From Microbacterium thalassium (GTDB taxonomy: Bacteria > Actinomycetota > Actinomycetes > Actinomycetales > Microbacteriaceae), in assembly GCF_014208045.1 (NCBI RefSeq), contig NZ_JACHML010000001.1:806001-870000 (forward strand): a stretch of DNA of 64,000 nucleotides. Reading direction: 5' to 3'. Below the pieces are notes generated by a model. That model had not been told where the DNA came from. It searched no databases and worked only from the letters and a program-made list of their open reading frames with translations. Within the stretch, counting starts at the first letter, position 1, and every line of letters starts with the position of its first letter. The translations under genes were made by a program, and so were the position numbers. Positions 49,735 through 56,784 of the stretch are shown here, in pieces.

Positions 49735-49760
49735 GGTGTGGGGCCCTCACATCGTTGTGC

Positions 49761-49782
49761 CGACCGAGCGCTCGTTCGGTCG
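49761..49782. promoter_or_regulatory. Palindromic TetR-type operator
   Basis: CGACCGA-N8-TCGGTCG has perfect 7-bp arms in the 97-bp gap between the divergent SDR and TetR genes. Arms of this ACCGA/TCGGT type are common for TetR repressors. Confidence 0.7.
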
Positions 49783-49831: not shown

Positions 49832-50467
49832 GTGACGACCGCGGATGAGCCGGCCAGCGTCGAGGCCGCGCCGATCGACGACTGGCGCGACTACTCGGCA
49901 GACGCGCTGCCCCCCGAGCTCGCGGCCGCCCTCGAGTGCTTCGTCGAGAGCGGTTTCCACGGGACGACCGTCCGGGTGATCGCGGCGCGAGCCGGCCTCT
50001 CGGTGGCCGGGTACTATCACCACCACCCGTCGAAGGAGGCCACGCTCGTGGCCGTCATGCGCAGTGCGATGGCCGATCTCTATGCTCGAACGCTCGCAGC
50101 GGATGCCGAGGCGGGCGCCGATCCGGTTCGTCGCCTGACGTCCCATGTCGAGTGTCTCGTCCTCTTCCACGCGCATCGCGGCGACCTGGCGTTCATCGCA
50201 GCGAGCGAGATCCGTTCCCTCGGTCCGCAGGCGCGAGCAGAGCACATCGCCGAGCGCGACCGGCAGCAGGCGGTGCTCGAGTCGATCGTTCACGAGGGTG
50301 TTCTCCAAGGCGTCTTCAGCGTCGCGCACGAGCGGGACGCCGTCCGTGCGCTCGTGACTATGTGCACGGGTGTCTCGCAGTGGTATCGCTCCGGCGGCGG
50401 GCTCGAGGCCGAAGAGCTCGCTGCCGAGTACGTGGAGTTGGCGCGACGGATGCTCGGCGTGCGCTGA
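49832..50467 (+). CDS. TetR family regulator
   Basis: A 211-residue TetR regulator. A 30-residue acidic N-terminal extension (ADEPASVEAAPIDDWRDYSAD) precedes the HTH, ALECFVESGFHGTTVRVIAARAGLSVAGYYHHHPSKEATLVAV. The C-terminal part (LVLFHAHRGDLAFIAASEIRSLGPQA) resembles the TetR_C domain of lipid-catabolism regulators such as KstR2-type proteins. GTG 49832 has GGAGG six bases upstream. It is divergent from the SDR-dehydrogenase-kinase operon, which it probably represses through the 22-bp palindrome, with an acyl-CoA as likely inducer. Confidence 0.88.
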   Translation: MTTADEPASVEAAPIDDWRDYSADALPPELAAALECFVESGFHGTTVRVIAARAGLSVAGYYHHHPSKEATLVAVMRSAMADLYARTLAADAEAGADPVRRLTSHVECLVLFHAHRGDLAFIAASEIRSLGPQARAEHIAERDRQQAVLESIVHEGVLQGVFSVAHERDAVRALVTMCTGVSQWYRSGGGLEAEELAAEYVELARRMLGVR

Positions 50468-50515
50468 TCCGGTACGAGGGCGATGCCTCCCGGCGACGTG
50501 GCCTCCGCTGCGACG

Positions 50516-50545
50516 TTGACAAAACCGGACATTGTCCCGTTTAAT
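50516..50545 (+). promoter_or_regulatory. Promoter-operator copy 1 (SDR/ALDH operon)
   Basis: TTGACA (50516-50521) and TTTAAT (50540-50545) are 18 bp apart. The spacer is the 21-bp palindrome AAACcGGACAtTGTCCcGTTT (50522-50542). A near-identical element lies at 53583-53612. Confidence 0.85.
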
Positions 50546-50555
50546 GATCTCGCGG

Positions 50556-50571
50556 CGGACGCGGATGTCCG
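50556..50571 (+). other. 5' leader hairpin, copy 1
   Basis: CGGAC-N6-GTCCG lies in the leader at the same place as CCCGAC-N6-GTCGGG in the second copy (53620-53637). The stem bases differ but pairing is kept. Confidence 0.5.
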
Positions 50572-50605
50572 GGTTACCGCAACGACGCAGCGCTGGGAGA
50601 CGACG

Positions 50606-50644
50606 ATGTCGCAAGTCACCATCCGTGGAGCACGACAGTGGTGA
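50606..50644 (+). CDS. 12-residue leader peptide coupled to the SDR gene
   Basis: ATG 50606 with GGGAGAC upstream opens a frame of 12 codons (MSQVTIRGARQW) ending in TGA at 50642-50644. That stop overlaps the GTG start of the SDR gene as GTGA. The first residues match those of the 96-residue protein behind the second promoter copy (MSQITGTW), so this looks like a shortened remnant of the same first gene, kept as a translational starter. It is an inference from sequence only. Confidence 0.6.
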   Translation: MSQVTIRGARQW

Positions 50645-51393
50645 CCCGCACTCGTCACCCCCGCGCCGCGCTGGTGACGGGCGGAAGCCGCGGCATCGGA
50701 TACGCCATCGCCCAGAGGCTTGCCGCGGACGGCTTCGCCCTGACTCTCTGCGCCCGCGATCGCGACCGTCTGGAGTCCGCGGCGGCCGCGCTTCGCGCCG
50801 AGCATGGCGTCGAGGTCCATGTGCACGCGGCCGATCTGTCGGACCCCGAGGGCTACGTGGACATCGTCGCCGCCCATGCCGAAGCCCGCGGCTCGCTCGA
50901 TGCGCTGGTCCTGAACGCGGGGATGGGAACGGTCGGCCCGATCGCCGATGCGACGGGGGAGCGGCTCCACAAGCTGATGGTCGTCAACGCGTTCTCGGCG
51001 ATCGGCCTGTTCCGATCGGCGCTGGGGATGCTGCGTGAGACCGCCGCCCGCAACGAAGAGCACGGAGCCAAGGTCATCGCGGTCGGATCGATCCTCGGCG
51101 CGCATCCGCATGCGCAACTGGGTGCCTATGCGGCGTCGAAAGCCGCGCTGGTCTCGCTCGTCAAGACGCTCAACCTGGAGCACTCCGGGGAGGGGATCTC
51201 GTCGACGGCGATCCTCCCGGCATACGTCGCGACGGACATGACGACGTGGCTCGGCGACTCCGTGCCGCGGAACACCATGCTCAGCGCCGCCGAGATCGCG
51301 GGCGTCGCGTCGATGCTCGCTGCTCTGTCGCGTCGCGCCGTCGTCGACGAGATCGTCATCGCCCGGGCCGGCACGGACGGACGCATCCCCTAG
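50641..51393 (+). CDS. Short-chain dehydrogenase/reductase
   Basis: A 250-residue SDR. RAALVTGGSRGIGYAIAQRL is the cofactor motif, LNAGMGTVG the structural motif, with Ser in VGSILGAHPHAQLGAYAASKAALVS, which holds the Tyr-Lys pair. It lacks the usual C-terminal DGG segment and ends after VVDEIVIARAGTDGRIP. GTG 50641 is preferred over GTG 50638 because it overlaps the leader peptide stop as GTGA. It heads an operon with an aldehyde dehydrogenase and a TetR gene, under promoter copy 1, and probably oxidises an alcohol formed by the P450 system. Confidence 0.85.
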   Translation: MTRTRHPRAALVTGGSRGIGYAIAQRLAADGFALTLCARDRDRLESAAAALRAEHGVEVHVHAADLSDPEGYVDIVAAHAEARGSLDALVLNAGMGTVGPIADATGERLHKLMVVNAFSAIGLFRSALGMLRETAARNEEHGAKVIAVGSILGAHPHAQLGAYAASKAALVSLVKTLNLEHSGEGISSTAILPAYVATDMTTWLGDSVPRNTMLSAAEIAGVASMLAALSRRAVVDEIVIARAGTDGRIP

Positions 51394-51430: not shown

Positions 51431-52831
51431 ATGTCCCAGACCACCCATCCCCAGCTGACGCGCGGCGCCTACTCGACGGTGAACCCGGCAACGGGCGAGG
51501 TCGTCCTCGATCGCGCCGCCTTCACCGATGCCGAGGCGGAGGAGGCGCTCGCGAAGGCGGATGCCGCGTTCGGGCTCTGGCGGAGCACCACGCTCGCCGA
51601 CCGGATCGCGCTGTTCGAGCATGCGGCCGCGGTCTTCGCCGAGAACCTTGAGCGCTACGCGCAGCTCAACGCCGAAGAGGCGGGCAAGCCGCTCGGCCAG
51701 GGCATGATGGAGGCGAGCACGGTCGTCGAGATGTTCCGCTATTACGCCGAGCGCGCTCCTGAGCTGCTCGCCGACAGGCCGGTCGAGCTCCCGCTGGCGA
51801 GTCAGGCGTATACGCGGAAGGAGCCGATAGGCGTCGTTCTCGCGATCGAGCCATGGAACGCTCCGATCTACCAGGCGATGCGGGCGACGGTGCCGAATCT
51901 CATGCTCGGCAACACCGTCATCATGAAGCCCGCGGCGCTCACCGCGAACTCCACGCTGCTCATCGACGAGCTCATGGCAGAAGCAGGCTTCCCGCCGGGC
52001 GTGTACCAGACGATCCTGCCGACCAGGGAGCAGGTCTCGCGGTACATCGCCGATCCGCGGGTGCGAGCCGTGACCTTCACGGGGTCGAATGAGATCGGAA
52101 CGAAGATCGGGCAGCAGGCGGCCGAGCACGTCAAGCCGGCCGTGCTCGAACTCGGAGGCTCGGACCCGTTCGTCGTCCTCGACTCGGCGGATGTCGCATC
52201 CGCGGCGGGCATGTCCTCGATGATGCGGCTCATGTTCGGCGGTCAGGTCTGCTACTCACCCAAGCGGGTCATCGTGACGGACAGGGTCGCCGACGAGTTC
52301 ATCGAGCAGTACACCGCGTTCTTCCGCGAGCAGGTGGTCGGCGACCCCCTCGATCCCGCGACGACACTCGGCCCGATGGCCAGTGCACGCGCGGCGTCCG
52401 ACCTGCAGGCGCTCTATGACGATGCCGTGGGCAAGGGGGCGACGGTGCTGGTCGCCGGGGGACGTGCGGAGGAGGGGAGCGCATACTTCCATCCCGCGGT
52501 GCTCACCGGCGTCGTTCCCGGGATGAGGCTGTACTACGAGGAGGCCTTCGGGCCGCTCGGGGTGATCTACCGAGCCGCCGATGCCGCCGATGCCGTCCGG
52601 CTCGCCAACGACACCCCGTACGGGCTCGGCGCGACCGTCTACGGAGAGGACCTCGACGAGGCGCGACTGGTCGCCGAAGGCATCGATTCGGGTGGCGTCG
52701 GCATCAACACGCTGTTCGGCGCGCCGGTCGAGGCGCCCTTCGGGGGGACCAAGGCCTCGGGAATCGGGCGCGAGCTCGGCGAGACGGGAATGGATGCCTT
52801 TGCCAATCACAAGACGTACGCCATCGGCTGA
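51431..52831 (+). CDS. NAD(P)-dependent aldehyde dehydrogenase
   Basis: A 466-residue aldehyde dehydrogenase of the succinate-semialdehyde/aromatic-aldehyde class. VNPATGEVV at the start, IEPWNAPIYQAMRATVPNLMLGN in the cofactor domain, VLELGGSDPFVVL with the general base Glu, and FGGQVCYSPKRVIV with catalytic Cys274 are visible; EAPFGGTKASGIGRELGETGMDAF is the typical C-terminus. It has an AGGAG site at good spacing. In the island it should oxidise an aldehyde, made from the P450 product by an alcohol dehydrogenase, to the acid used by the acyl-CoA ligase. Confidence 0.9.
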   Translation: MSQTTHPQLTRGAYSTVNPATGEVVLDRAAFTDAEAEEALAKADAAFGLWRSTTLADRIALFEHAAAVFAENLERYAQLNAEEAGKPLGQGMMEASTVVEMFRYYAERAPELLADRPVELPLASQAYTRKEPIGVVLAIEPWNAPIYQAMRATVPNLMLGNTVIMKPAALTANSTLLIDELMAEAGFPPGVYQTILPTREQVSRYIADPRVRAVTFTGSNEIGTKIGQQAAEHVKPAVLELGGSDPFVVLDSADVASAAGMSSMMRLMFGGQVCYSPKRVIVTDRVADEFIEQYTAFFREQVVGDPLDPATTLGPMASARAASDLQALYDDAVGKGATVLVAGGRAEEGSAYFHPAVLTGVVPGMRLYYEEAFGPLGVIYRAADAADAVRLANDTPYGLGATVYGEDLDEARLVAEGIDSGGVGINTLFGAPVEAPFGGTKASGIGRELGETGMDAFANHKTYAIG

Positions 52832-52874: not shown

Positions 52875-53498
52875 ATGGAGAAGCGGCAGTACGCGAAAGG
52901 CGTGGCGAAGCGCGAGGAGATCCTCGCGGCATCCCTCGAGCTCATCGCCGAGGAGGGCTACGGTGCGGTGACGATCCGAGAGGTCGCCGCCCGCGCGGGG
53001 CTCAGCAAGACCGGCATCGGCCACCACTTCGCCAGCAAGGACCAGCTGCTCACGGCGCTGATCGCGCAACGCGACGCGCCGGCTCTCGAGGTCCTCGAGG
53101 ATGCGTCGCCCGAGGACCTCTTCGAGATCACGCGCACCAGCATGGCGTGGCAGCATGCCATCCCCGGCCTCACGGAGCTGTACGTTCGGCTGGCGGCAGA
53201 AGCCACCGATCCCGACAACGCCGCTCACCAGTTCTTCGCGGAGCGGTTCCGGGCGGCCAACGAGCATGGATTCGCCGCGCTCGAGGGGCTGCAGGAGACC
53301 GGCCATGCGCCGAAGTCGATCGACCCGCGGGTGCTGTCGATGCTCATGTCCATGTTGGTCGACGGAATCCAGTTGCGGCTTCTCTACGAGCCCGACCTCG
53401 ACATGACCGCGCCGCTCGACGCGCTCCAGAACCTGTTCGAGCTCGCCGCCCGGGCCGAGGCGCTCGCCCCGCCGTCGGACGGTCCGACCGCGCACTGA
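52875..53498 (+). CDS. TetR family regulator
   Basis: A 207-residue TetR regulator. The HTH reads AKREEILAASLELIAEEGYGAVTIREVAARAGLSKTGIGHHFASKDQLL. The C-terminal domain (about 75-195) is helical and acidic (LTELYVRLAAEATDPDNAAHQFFAERF). It lies between two operons that share one promoter-operator palindrome (GGACA-N-TGTCC), which makes it the better candidate of the two TetR proteins for binding that element. A terminator follows the gene. Confidence 0.88.
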   Translation: MEKRQYAKGVAKREEILAASLELIAEEGYGAVTIREVAARAGLSKTGIGHHFASKDQLLTALIAQRDAPALEVLEDASPEDLFEITRTSMAWQHAIPGLTELYVRLAAEATDPDNAAHQFFAERFRAANEHGFAALEGLQETGHAPKSIDPRVLSMLMSMLVDGIQLRLLYEPDLDMTAPLDALQNLFELAARAEALAPPSDGPTAH

Positions 53499-53510
53499 CG
53501 CGCCTTCTGT

Positions 53511-53544
53511 GCGAAAGCGGGGGTGGAGGCACCCCCGCTTTCGC
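53511..53544 (+). terminator. Terminator after the TetR gene
   Basis: A perfect 15-bp stem (53511-53525 with 53530-53544) closes on a GAGG loop, 12 bases past the stop. It insulates promoter copy 2. Confidence 0.85.
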
Positions 53545-53582
53545 GCGTCCTGGACGATTTCCGGGGGATTCGCTCCGCATCG

Positions 53583-53612
53583 TTGACAAAACCGGACACT
53601 GTCCCGTTTAAT
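53583..53612 (+). promoter_or_regulatory. Promoter-operator copy 2 (P450 operon)
   Basis: TTGACA (53583-53588) and TTTAAT (53607-53612) are 18 bp apart with the palindrome AAACcGGACAcTGTCCcGTTT (53589-53609) in the spacer. It differs from copy 1 at a single base over more than 30, the central base of the palindrome, and the leader that follows is also related. Confidence 0.85.
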
Positions 53613-53672
53613 GAGTTCACCCGACGCAGGAGTCGGGCTGAACCGCAACGATGCAGTGCAAGGGAGACAGCG

Positions 53673-53963
53673 ATGTCGCAGATCACCGGTACCTGGAACC
53701 TCGAGGTGAAGACCCCGACCGGTCCGCAGAAGTTCGTGCTCGCCATCACGGACGAGCCGCTGGGAGCAGAGCGCGTGGACGAGGCAGGAGTCGACTTCTA
53801 CAACGTGGCGCTCGAGGGCGACACGGCGACCTTCGAGGGCGACACCGACAAGCCCATGAAGCTCCACATGATCTACACCCTCGTCGCCGACGGCGACGAC
53901 ATCTCGGGCACTGTGAAGCCCGGCCCGTTCCCCAACCAGAAGATCGTCGGCAGCCGGGCCTGA
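53673..53963 (+). CDS. 96-residue beta-rich protein of unknown function
   Basis: The first gene of the P450 operon. Alternating patterns (MSQITGTWNLEVKTP, KFVLAITDE, FYNVALEGDTATFEG, MKLHMIYTLVADGDDISGTV, FPNQKIVGSRA) predict six to eight short beta strands, as in small lipocalin-like or FABP-like barrels. No signal peptide or cysteine. It might bind the hydrophobic P450 substrate or product, but this is only a structural guess. GGGAGAC lies before ATG 53673. A 12-codon remnant of the same start lies behind promoter copy 1. Confidence 0.8.
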   Translation: MSQITGTWNLEVKTPTGPQKFVLAITDEPLGAERVDEAGVDFYNVALEGDTATFEGDTDKPMKLHMIYTLVADGDDISGTVKPGPFPNQKIVGSRA

Positions 53964-54056: not shown

Positions 54057-55319
54057 ATGCAGATCCACGCAACCGCCCACGAGCCGACCACCGGCCTGGA
54101 CATCTCCAGCGTCGCGTTCTGGAGCAAGACGTTCGACGAGCGCAACGAGACGTTCGCACAGCTCCGCGCCGACCACCCGGTGAGCTGGCACCCGCCGATG
54201 GAGGACCTCGACCTCGCTCCCGAAGAGCACGGCGAGGCAGGGTACTGGGCGGTGGTGCGCGCCGAGGACATCGCGCACGTGAGCATGCATCACGAGCTGT
54301 TCAGCTCGCAGCTGGGCACGACGTCGCTCCACCCGATTCCCGGGAATGCCGGGGCGAGCTTCCTCGACTACGACCCGCCCAAGCACACGGCGTACCGCAA
54401 GATCATGAGCGCGGCCTTCACCCCGAAGGCGGTCGCACGTCTTAGCCAGAAGATCGAGGAGCGCGCCGCCGGAATCATCGACCGCGTGGTCGGCGCCGGT
54501 GAGATCGACTTCGTCGACGAGGTGTCGTCGCGACTGCCCATGATGACCGTGGCCGACCTCCTGGGCGTCCCGGAAGAGCTCATGGAGACATTCCGCCAGG
54601 CCGGCGACGACCTGTTCGCGCTGCAGGACCCCGGCGTGGGCGGCTCGCGCGAGGAGCGGTTCGCTACCTCGGCGACCGCGTTCGGCACGCTGTCGCAGAT
54701 CGCGACCGAACTCGCCGAGGCGCGGCGCGCGAAGCCCCAGGACGACATCATGACGGCGCTCGTGCAGGCGAACATCGACGGGGAGGTCCTCGACGAGATG
54801 GACCTCACAATGATCACCCTGCTGTTCGCGACCGCCGGGAACGACACCACGAAGCAGACGACGACGTGGAGCCTCATGCAGCTCGAGGCGAACCCGGATC
54901 AGAAGCGCTGGCTCATGGACGACTACGACGGGCGGATCGTCGGAGCCATCGAGGAGTTCGTCCGCCACGCGAGCCCCGTCATGCAGTTCGCCCGCACCGC
55001 CACGCAGGACGTCGAGCTGGGCGGGCAGCTCATCTCGGCCGGCGACAAGGTCGGCATCTTCTACTGCTCGGGCAATCGCGACGAGTCGGTGTTCGACCGG
55101 CCCGGGCGGTTCGACCTGTCGCGCACGCCGAACCGCCACCAGGCGTTCGGTGGAGGCGGGGTGCACTACTGCCTCGGCAATGCCGTCGCGAAGGCGCAGC
55201 TGCGCGCGCTGTTCCGCCAGATACTCACCAAGCTGCCCGACATCGAGATCGGCGAGCCGGTCCAGCTGGTCAGCGACTTCATCAACGGCGTGCGGCACCT
55301 GCCCGTCACGATCCGCTGA
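54057..55319 (+). CDS. Cytochrome P450
   Basis: A 420-residue soluble bacterial P450. The I-helix oxygen motif AGNDTT is at residues 260-265, the ExxR pair is in EEFVRHASPV, and the heme loop FGGGGVHYCLGNAVAKAQ carries the thiolate Cys372. The YDPPKHTAYRKIMSAAFTP segment is typical of the class-I, ferredoxin-fed CYP124/125/142-like and terpene-oxidising groups. A ferredoxin and a reductase gene follow within 20 bp, giving a full class-I electron chain. It should hydroxylate a hydrophobic compound at an unactivated carbon; the substrate is unknown. Confidence 0.93.
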   Translation: MQIHATAHEPTTGLDISSVAFWSKTFDERNETFAQLRADHPVSWHPPMEDLDLAPEEHGEAGYWAVVRAEDIAHVSMHHELFSSQLGTTSLHPIPGNAGASFLDYDPPKHTAYRKIMSAAFTPKAVARLSQKIEERAAGIIDRVVGAGEIDFVDEVSSRLPMMTVADLLGVPEELMETFRQAGDDLFALQDPGVGGSREERFATSATAFGTLSQIATELAEARRAKPQDDIMTALVQANIDGEVLDEMDLTMITLLFATAGNDTTKQTTTWSLMQLEANPDQKRWLMDDYDGRIVGAIEEFVRHASPVMQFARTATQDVELGGQLISAGDKVGIFYCSGNRDESVFDRPGRFDLSRTPNRHQAFGGGGVHYCLGNAVAKAQLRALFRQILTKLPDIEIGEPVQLVSDFINGVRHLPVTIR

Positions 55320-55337
55320 GCGAGGAACGAGGAAGAC

Positions 55338-55547
55338 ATGACCATTCTGCGAATCGACGTCGACCGCAACCGCTGCACCGGCATCGGCATCTGCGAGTCG
55401 TACGCGCCGGACCGCTTCGAGGTCGACGACGACGGCACCCTCATCGTGCGGGGCGAGGACGTCTCGGCCGCCGAACGGGACGAGATCGAGCAGGCGGTGA
55501 ACGGTTGCCCGGCGGCCGCGCTGCGTCTCGTGGAAGTGCCGGCCTGA
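55338..55547 (+). CDS. 3Fe-4S-type ferredoxin
   Basis: A 69-residue ferredoxin. Three cysteines are visible: the pair in CTGIGIC and the one in GCPAAAL, with Ile where a fourth cysteine would sit, so a [3Fe-4S] cluster is expected as in other actinobacterial P450 ferredoxins. The acidic surface (EVDDDGT) suits docking to reductase and P450. It lies 18 bp after the first P450 and one base before its reductase, its evident partners. AGGAA precedes the ATG. Confidence 0.92.
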   Translation: MTILRIDVDRNRCTGIGICESYAPDRFEVDDDGTLIVRGEDVSAAERDEIEQAVNGCPAAALRLVEVPA

Positions 55548-55548
55548 G

Positions 55549-56784
55549 ATGAGCGGGCAGCTTGTCGTCGTCGGAGCCTCGCTCGCCGGGCTGCGCGCTG
55601 TGGAGGCCGCGCGGAAGGCCGGATTCGACGGTGCGATCACGCTCATCGGCGCTGAGACGCACCTGCCGTATGATCGCCCGCCGCTGTCGAAGCGCTACCT
55701 GCTGGGCGAGGTCGATGCTGACGTCTACCGCACCGAGGACGCGCTCCGCGAAGAACTCGGGGTCGAACTGAGGCTCGGCGAGAGGGCGATCGCGTTGCGC
55801 GCCGAAGACCGCGTCGTCGTGACCGACCGCGACGAGTACCGGTACGACTCCCTGATCATCGCCACGGGAGCGGCGCCGCGGACGATCCCCGGCGTGCCGG
55901 ACCTGGCCGGCATCGTCACACTGCGCAGCATCGGGGACGCCGATCGCCTGCGCGAGCTGGTGGTCCCCGGAGCGCGCGTCGTCATCCTCGGCGCCGGGTT
56001 CATCGGCTCCGAGATCGCCTCGTCGGCGAAGAAGCTGGGAGCGCACGCGACCGTCCTCGACGGTGCACCCGTGCCGCTCGTGCGGGCCGTCGGCGAGGAG
56101 ATCGGCGGCGCGCTCGCGTCGCTGCATCCGGCGAACGGCACCCGCCTCATCCTCGGCACCGTCATCGAGGAGTTCGTGGGCGACGACGCGATCCGCGAGG
56201 TGCGACTGAGCAACGGCGAGGTCCTGCCCGCGGACGTGGTCGTGATCGGGATCGGTGCGGCTCCGGCGACCGGCTGGCTGCGGGATTCCGGCATCGACCT
56301 CGACGCCCGCGACGGCGGCGTCGTGTGCGACGAGCACATGCAGACATCGCTGCCGGGAGTGTTCGCCGCCGGCGACGTCGCGCACTGGCCGAACCGTGCA
56401 CTCGGGCTCACGATGCGTCTCGAGAACTGGACGAACGCGGCCGACCAGGCCGCGGTAGCCGGGCGCAACGCCGTCACTCCCGACAGTCTCGCGCCCTACG
56501 CGACCGTCCCCTACTTCTGGAGCGATTGGTACGAGCAGCGCATCCAGTTCGTCGGCACCGCGACCGCGGATTCCGTCGAGATCGTCGCCGGCTCCGTCGA
56601 CGACACGCGCTTCGTCGCGCTCTTCGTCACCGACGATCGCGTGGTGGGCGCGGCGACCCTCAACGAGCCGCGAAAGATCATGAAGCTGAGGCGCGTCATC
56701 GCCGATGGTGCCGGCAGAGAGGCCGCGCTCGAGATCGTCAACGGCGCAGCACGCGCTCGCACGCCCGAAGGAGCGACAGCATGA
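55549..56784 (+). CDS. FAD-dependent ferredoxin reductase
   Basis: A 411-residue NAD(P)H-ferredoxin reductase of the putidaredoxin-reductase type. The FAD motif is QLVVVGASLAGLRAVEAA, the NAD motif VVILGAGFIGSEIA, and FAAGDVAHWPN binds the flavin again. The C-terminal domain (from about 320, PYFWSDWYEQRIQFVG) is the reductase cap. It passes electrons from NADH to the ferredoxin encoded immediately upstream and so to the P450. Its stop overlaps the next start (ATGA). Confidence 0.93.
   Translation: MSGQLVVVGASLAGLRAVEAARKAGFDGAITLIGAETHLPYDRPPLSKRYLLGEVDADVYRTEDALREELGVELRLGERAIALRAEDRVVVTDRDEYRYDSLIIATGAAPRTIPGVPDLAGIVTLRSIGDADRLRELVVPGARVVILGAGFIGSEIASSAKKLGAHATVLDGAPVPLVRAVGEEIGGALASLHPANGTRLILGTVIEEFVGDDAIREVRLSNGEVLPADVVVIGIGAAPATGWLRDSGIDLDARDGGVVCDEHMQTSLPGVFAAGDVAHWPNRALGLTMRLENWTNAADQAAVAGRNAVTPDSLAPYATVPYFWSDWYEQRIQFVGTATADSVEIVAGSVDDTRFVALFVTDDRVVGAATLNEPRKIMKLRRVIADGAGREAALEIVNGAARARTPEGATA

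Follow-up and report, generated by a model that had tools for sequence, protein, structure and literature searches.

Apparent copying of a whole repressor switch, with the first codons of its source gene, to a second operon of a soil-type actinobacterium

Short coupling ORFs and the present locus

Short ORFs that couple translation to a following gene are already known, among them integron ORF-11 and MIRU. In class 1 integrons, ORF-11 of attI1 comprises 11 residues, has a GGAG Shine-Dalgarno (SD) sequence, is situated in a leader, and is described as lifting translation of the next gene by coupling (PMC8876359). For mycobacterial interspersed repetitive units (MIRUs), a short ORF that entered an actinobacterial gene at its start codon is described, coupling taking place through an overlap of -4 nt (PMC12548453). 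Coupling by RNA unfolding or by reinitiation is reviewed in the latter source and studied in PMC6728339.

The window, i.e. the whole stretch of 64,000 nucleotides that was analysed, contains a 12-codon mini-ORF that would work like integron ORF-11 and MIRU, which does not imply membership in either. The likeness to ORF-11 and ORF-17 (PMC8876359) lies in a short leader ORF that is set beside the next gene by DNA rearrangement. Unlike integron ORF-11, the mini-ORF resembles the start of a neighbouring gene and comes with a repressor operator. MIRUs are dispersed repeats, whereas the cassette reported here consists of two copies with promoter and operator. Unfolding-type coupling (PMC12548453, PMC6728339) is resembled in the overlap of stop and start, in a predicted structure masking the downstream start, and in the location of one of its arms in the upstream ORF. 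In contrast to such coupling, the upstream ORF here would be a 12-codon remnant and not a full gene. What is unusual is a gene-start fragment copied together with a repressor switch.

Our main reading combines duplication of the cassette, control of two operons by the TetR-family protein TetR2, and coupled translation of an SDR gene. As a whole it is given slightly better than even odds (about 0.52). Entry into a regulon is possible via point mutations that make an operator; here a single copying event seems to have brought in the whole switch, and the copied gene start may have solved translation initiation at the same time as control.

The duplicated promoter-operator-leader block

The features of both copies, all on the forward strand, are as follows.

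50516..50545, +, promoter of copy 1 (-35 TTGACA, 18-bp spacer, -10 TTTAAT; from sequence and alignment)
50522..50542, +, operator of copy 1, AAACCGGACATTGTCCCGTTT, 21 bp
50641..51393, +, SDR oxidoreductase (Pfam adh_short; eight homologues start similarly)
51431..52831, +, aldehyde dehydrogenase (ALDH; Pfam Aldedh), probably in the same operon as the SDR
52875..53498, +, TetR2 (Pfam TetR_N; operators of its relatives), putative repressor acting on both copies
53511..53544, +, perfect inverted repeat of 15 bp, which probably terminates the copy-1 operon
53583..53612, +, promoter of copy 2 (-35, spacer, -10; from sequence and alignment)
53589..53609, +, operator of copy 2, AAACCGGACACTGTCCCGTTT, 21 bp
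53673..53963, +, 96-residue protein opened by copy 2
54057-55319, +, cytochrome P450 (Pfam), first gene of the stretch 54057..56784 of the copy-2 operon
55338-55547, +, 4Fe-4S ferredoxin (Pfam Fer4_13), copy-2 operon
55549-56784, +, ferredoxin reductase (Pfam), copy-2 operon

Judged by gene order, the copy-1 operon would comprise the mini-ORF, the SDR, ALDH and TetR2 genes and end at the inverted repeat. Copy 2 is followed by the genes for the 96-residue protein, P450, ferredoxin, reductase, an alcohol dehydrogenase, an HtaA-domain protein, and a second P450, which presumably form the other operon.

The duplication of the promoter-operator-leader-gene-start block is real. Local alignment of 50465-50700 with 53499-53760 yielded identity in 97 of 121 columns at a score of 108, which was reached by none of 1,000 dinucleotide shuffles (maximum 29). 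Analyzed part by part, the best local stretches were 33/34 identical in the promoter-operator part and 38/48 in the leader (0/1000 shuffles in both cases), and 13/15 past the ATG, equalled by 22/1000 shuffles. Local alignment found no similarity between the copies 5' of the -35 element, where 841/1000 shuffles did as well. Because of this part-by-part alignment the copied block is taken to extend from the -35 element, or just 5' of it, into the first codons.

TTGACA-AAACCGGACAnTGTCCCG-TTTAAT is found at 50516-50545 and 53583-53612, with the -35 hexamers at 50516-50521 and 53583-53588 and the -10 hexamers TTTAAT at 50540-50545 and 53607-53612. These coordinates confirm the original prediction that both regions share TTGACA, an 18-bp spacer and TTTAAT. 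Both leaders contain the string ACCGCAACGA, and an ATG opens MSQVT in copy 1 (50606) and MSQIT in copy 2 (53673), as had also been described. With up to 3 mismatches allowed, the promoter-operator element occurs twice in the own genome of 3,696,012 bases (3.70 Mb) and in none of the 246 further genomes sampled from the genus. Together with 97/121 identical columns and 0/1000 shuffles, these counts bear out the proposed copied control cassette. Of the suggested alignment of both regions with their orthologues, the part on the two regions gave the result above; no orthologous cassette was detected in the genomes searched.

It is highly improbable that the two promoters became alike by convergence on a shared operator and a strong promoter. 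Identity does peak in the promoter-operator part (33/34) and is lower in the leader (38/48), as convergence would have it, but the leader and the first codons also match beyond shuffles (0/1000 and 22/1000, respectively).

A leader hairpin kept by different bases in the two copies had been proposed as well, and this did not hold. In copy 2, the stem CCCGAC/GTCGGG is predicted, with inner five pairs at >=0.97 (at least 0.97) at three lengths tried. In copy 1, the stem CGGAC/GTCCG has a probability of 0.00-0.01, or 0.07-0.08 if the transcript starts at 50554, and another stem is favoured. A conserved hairpin with compensating bases was therefore rejected for copy 1 by the predicted pair probabilities. 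The copy-1 leader carries at 50565-50575 an extra inverted half-site, ATGTCCGGGTT, whose sequence complements the left arm of the operator; for copy 2, this inverted-repeat search reported no such half-site.

In the proposed course of events, the cassette of promoter, spacer operator, leader, SD and first codons of the 96-residue gene would have been duplicated from the P450 operon and placed in front of the SDR-ALDH-tetR2 operon. We infer this direction, from copy 2 to copy 1, because copy 2 opens an intact gene. The ATG of copy 2 opens the predicted 96-residue gene at 53673-53963. Its product had no Pfam or NCBIfam match, and when a large protein collection was searched by a method that depends on 5-residue words in common, the sole match was the protein itself. 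Weak relatives are present in 8 of 118 further genomes of the genus, as a paralogue in the own genome (553966-554262), and in 8 plasmid records at 29-33% identity.

No orthologues of the P450 were found in 395 other genomes of the order (E 1e-70), and because no close P450 occurs there the locus looks accessory. In the class-wide search, for which four candidates were scored in most of the genomes listed, 35 of 393 other genomes had matches (E 1e-100), the best being 58% identical. Plasmid P450s were all less than 60% identical, and the neighbourhood on a Pseudonocardia plasmid showed nothing alike by annotation; the stretch from Embleya carries no annotation. For other species, an exact scan of a genome collection with AAACNGGACANTGTCCNGTTT gave 89 loci, but this route was discarded. 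By eye most of these were terminator-like palindromes flanked by A- and T-tracts, and many came from Pseudomonas. Four loci (L060, L071, L084, L101) appeared operator-like by eye, yet in none of them does TTGACA adjoin the palindrome.

TetR2 as candidate repressor and the reach of the operator

The operator is an imperfect palindrome with 9 of 10 arm positions paired. The original prediction equated it with the spacer; it fills the 18-bp spacer, but is 21 bp long and runs 3 bp beyond, so that its final three bases double as the opening three of the -10 hexamer. In the 21-bp frame both operators of the window read AAACC-N11-CGTTT.

KstR and KstR2 exemplify autoregulated catabolic regulons of the TetR family, in which the TetR gene lies inside the cluster and palindromic operators overlap promoters. 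TetR2 shares this layout, since its gene is the third of the copy-1 operon, inside the presumed regulated cluster, and a palindromic operator overlaps the promoter. It scores below the NCBIfam cut-off for KstR itself (24 of 280 bits), and KstR2 chains were among the weak matches in the search. The N-terminus is a clear TetR_N helix-turn-helix (PF00440, 57.9 bits vs a cut-off of 24). TetR2 has no match to TetR_C_24, which is found in TetR1 and TetR3, and all of its 22 NCBIfam matches (KstR, FadR, RutR and other named TetR equivalogs) were under the cut-offs.

In the proposed mechanism, TetR2 would bind the operators of the two copies, perhaps also a third site near 66951, and block RNA polymerase until a pathway substrate or product releases it. 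TetR2 would thereby control its own expression. TetR2 is quite probably the binder of the duplicated operator and the best candidate for it, judged by sequence: such a palindrome is part of the promoter of the operon to which its gene presumably belongs, and such sites are also found in front of the genes of its relatives. TetR2 matches were obtained in 204 of 244 genomes of the genus, own included. Inspected were 19 loci, namely the 20 returned by the genus search minus that of the window, encoding proteins 37-43% identical. AAACC-N11-GGTTT was found 58-81 nt upstream in 15 of these 19 best relatives in the genus, 13 times exactly and twice with one mismatch. Among the four without a site at <=1 mismatch, L106 and L111 have two-mismatch sites, and L109 and L114 have none. 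In loci of other genera, 148,925 bases in total, the background was 0 sites at <=1 mismatch and 18 at <=2. The fifteen sites are not independent, since most of these relatives probably belong to a single orthologous group. Within the own genome, the sole exact AAACC-N11-GGTTT lies before a TetR2 paralogue (L178, 1275517-1276143), and a one-mismatch site precedes another (L180, 547557-548123). No such site was seen before L179, L181, TetR1 or L183. Altogether, 15 sites with <=1 mismatch were counted in this genome, compared to 1 for a reversed-pattern control. Five of the 15 correspond to the two copies or precede TetR2 paralogues, and the other 10 are elsewhere in the genome. The idea of one repressor commanding both operons is thus supported inferentially, with TetR2 as the likely protein through the operators of its relatives and paralogues.

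The L106-L124 subfamily of TetR proteins mostly has YAKG near the N-terminus, with operators AAACC-N11-GGTTT about 60-80 nt upstream, in which the outer AAACC/GGTTT is constant and the inner bases are variable. This pattern of constant outer and variable inner bases may characterize the TetR subfamily. For the P450 cluster, TetR2 with AAACCGGACAnTGTCCCGTTT provides a concrete candidate repressor-operator pair.

Two features bear on other binders and on further sites.

49832..50467, +, TetR1 (Pfam TetR_N + TetR_C_24), not favoured for the duplicated operator
66946-66966 (window-equivalent; core at 66951; 1499-1519 of locus L159; genome 872946-872966), third operator-like site, ATACTGGACAATGTCCTGCTT

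Binding of the duplicated operator by another TetR, be it TetR1 or a protein encoded elsewhere in the genome, is unlikely. TetR1 is the nearest upstream gene, but it has a distinct palindrome of its own (49760-49782). Palindromes very similar to the operator, AAACGGGACAnTGTCCCGTTT, occur in other actinobacteria. Near-identical ones were seen in L071, L084 and L101, and the one in L084 adjoins a TetR that is not of the TetR2 type, because of which the operator alone cannot name its binding protein. This would favour another binder, but in the own genome even the closest homologue of that L084 protein is only 33% identical to it, and the 21-bp AAACC/GGTTT frame is common to TetR2 relatives. The palindrome at 49760-49782, which differs from the duplicated operator, lies between TetR1 and a divergent SDR gene and is the probable TetR1 operator. 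TetR3 (at 65693) carries TetR_C_24 and likewise has other palindromes beside it, TTAGTGAGCGATCGCTAA and TTAGCGAGCGCTAA of locus L162 (window-equivalent positions 65647 and 68087), close to TetR3 and ahead of an MFS transporter gene (68173). These perhaps represent a separate TetR3 operator.

The core GGACAnTGTCC has 4 occurrences in the 3.70-Mb genome, 3 of them inside 16.4 kb, which suggests a small local regulon. The fourth is located at 3264907 within a 583-codon open stretch. The third site lies just past the window end, where promoters of this cluster diverge. It is flanked by an ORF on the minus strand that has no Pfam match and by the gene of a zinc-binding dehydrogenase, and it may widen the regulon. 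It is weak outside the core (7/10 arm positions). As a third copy of the cassette it was rejected. One strand does match copy 1 when the operator forms part of the comparison (1/500 shuffles), but the leader without the operator fails (345 and 312/1000 shuffles), its best sub-test being 57/1000. The core was absent from the loci inspected from other genomes (L006-L013, L015, L106-L124 and L126-L156), and a literature search on the operator core and on the operator of the relatives yielded nothing relevant among the papers listed, those on the core being biomedical by title.

The mini-ORF and translation of the SDR gene

Two features are located at the junction of copy 1 and the SDR gene.

50606..50644, +, 12-codon mini-ORF MSQVTIRGARQW (from sequence), with SD GGGAG at 50595-50599
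50615..50645, +, predicted RNA hairpin GUCACCAU/GUGGUGAC (inverted repeat, -14.0 kcal/mol)

As originally described, copy 1 opens only this 12-codon ORF, whose TGA (50642-50644) overlaps the SDR start GTG at 50641; GTG at 50638 is a possible SDR start too. With a start site and GGGAG of its own and its end at the SDR start, the mini-ORF has the geometry of a short upstream ORF. Past the five shared codons, a 40-nt stretch of copy 1 agrees with copy 2 at 21/40 positions when a one-base skip is allowed. Seven other offsets gave 8-15 matches per 40 nt, and 98 of 14,731 coding windows equalled 21/40 with the best of seven offsets taken. In the base-skipped frame, a Trp codon falls on a tryptophan that is invariant in 11 aligned members of the 96-residue family. 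The mini-ORF is therefore likely a frameshifted remnant of the 96-residue gene, as far as such similarity can tell. That the first gene shrank to a translational starter, as had been proposed, is plausible in view of the remnant likeness of 21/40, but gapped shuffle tests of the DNA past codon 5 were not significant.

According to the proposed mechanism, the imported gene start in copy 1 would have been truncated to 12 codons, ending where the SDR begins. Ribosomes starting at the stronger SD of the mini-ORF would open the hairpin masking the SDR start and finish on this start, and the SDR would thus be translated by coupling through unfolding and reinitiation. The SD duplexes with the anti-SD amount to -7.3 kcal/mol for the mini-ORF vs -5.6 for the SDR. 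The predicted hairpin spans both candidate SDR starts, with codons 4-6 of the mini-ORF as its 5' arm, and contains the partly paired SDR SD. Its pair probability is 0.66-0.79 in the 109-nt leader, the minimum-energy fold of which is a different one without this hairpin, and 0.95-1.0 in three other contexts tried. The SDR start is the most paired among 14 starts examined, one of which has 0.62. Coupling, which formed part of the original prediction, agrees with the stop-start geometry and the fit of the hairpin to the start codon. Against it stand the SDR's own SD, the predicted pairing of the mini-ORF start, and the 35/1000 shuffles that fold as well locally, which makes the hairpin only modestly unusual. 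Because the SDR start is hidden as fully in 37/300 shuffles, 35/1000 reach the same local fold, and the SD and ATG of the mini-ORF are themselves predicted to be largely paired in longer folds, the hairpin evidence for coupling is suggestive only. Coupled translation of the SDR is plausible and, from these fold predictions, weakly supported.

A contrary explanation, which falls somewhat short of an even chance, regards the mini-ORF as a passive residue of the copied cassette; the SDR would use its own GGAG, and only the promoter-operator would matter. The modest SD of the SDR at 50627-50630 lies 7 nt 5' of GTG 50638 (-5.6 kcal/mol) and could serve this purpose. The stop overlap requires little coincidence, as an ATG in the mini-ORF frame stays open in 81% of shuffles, and the modest rarity of the hairpin and the predicted pairing of the mini-ORF start fit a leftover as well. 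However, the hairpin would mask the SDR start unless it is opened, and the mini-ORF has the stronger SD.

The promoter-operator-leader-start block might be a self-contained expression cartridge that confers on any operon behind it the repressor response and, by way of its truncated gene start, efficient translation, although this generalization is doubtful. If true, the cartridge would be a natural bicistronic design from one duplication, combining repressor control and ribosome entry in a single step.

A sequencing error that separates the SDR from a fused MSQVT start was considered as well; it is conceivable but not needed, the eight homologous SDRs that were inspected starting without such an extension. 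The ALDH gene start (51431-51445) also reads MSQ-T-T, with DNA close to the copy-2 start, which may be chance or a further trace of copying.
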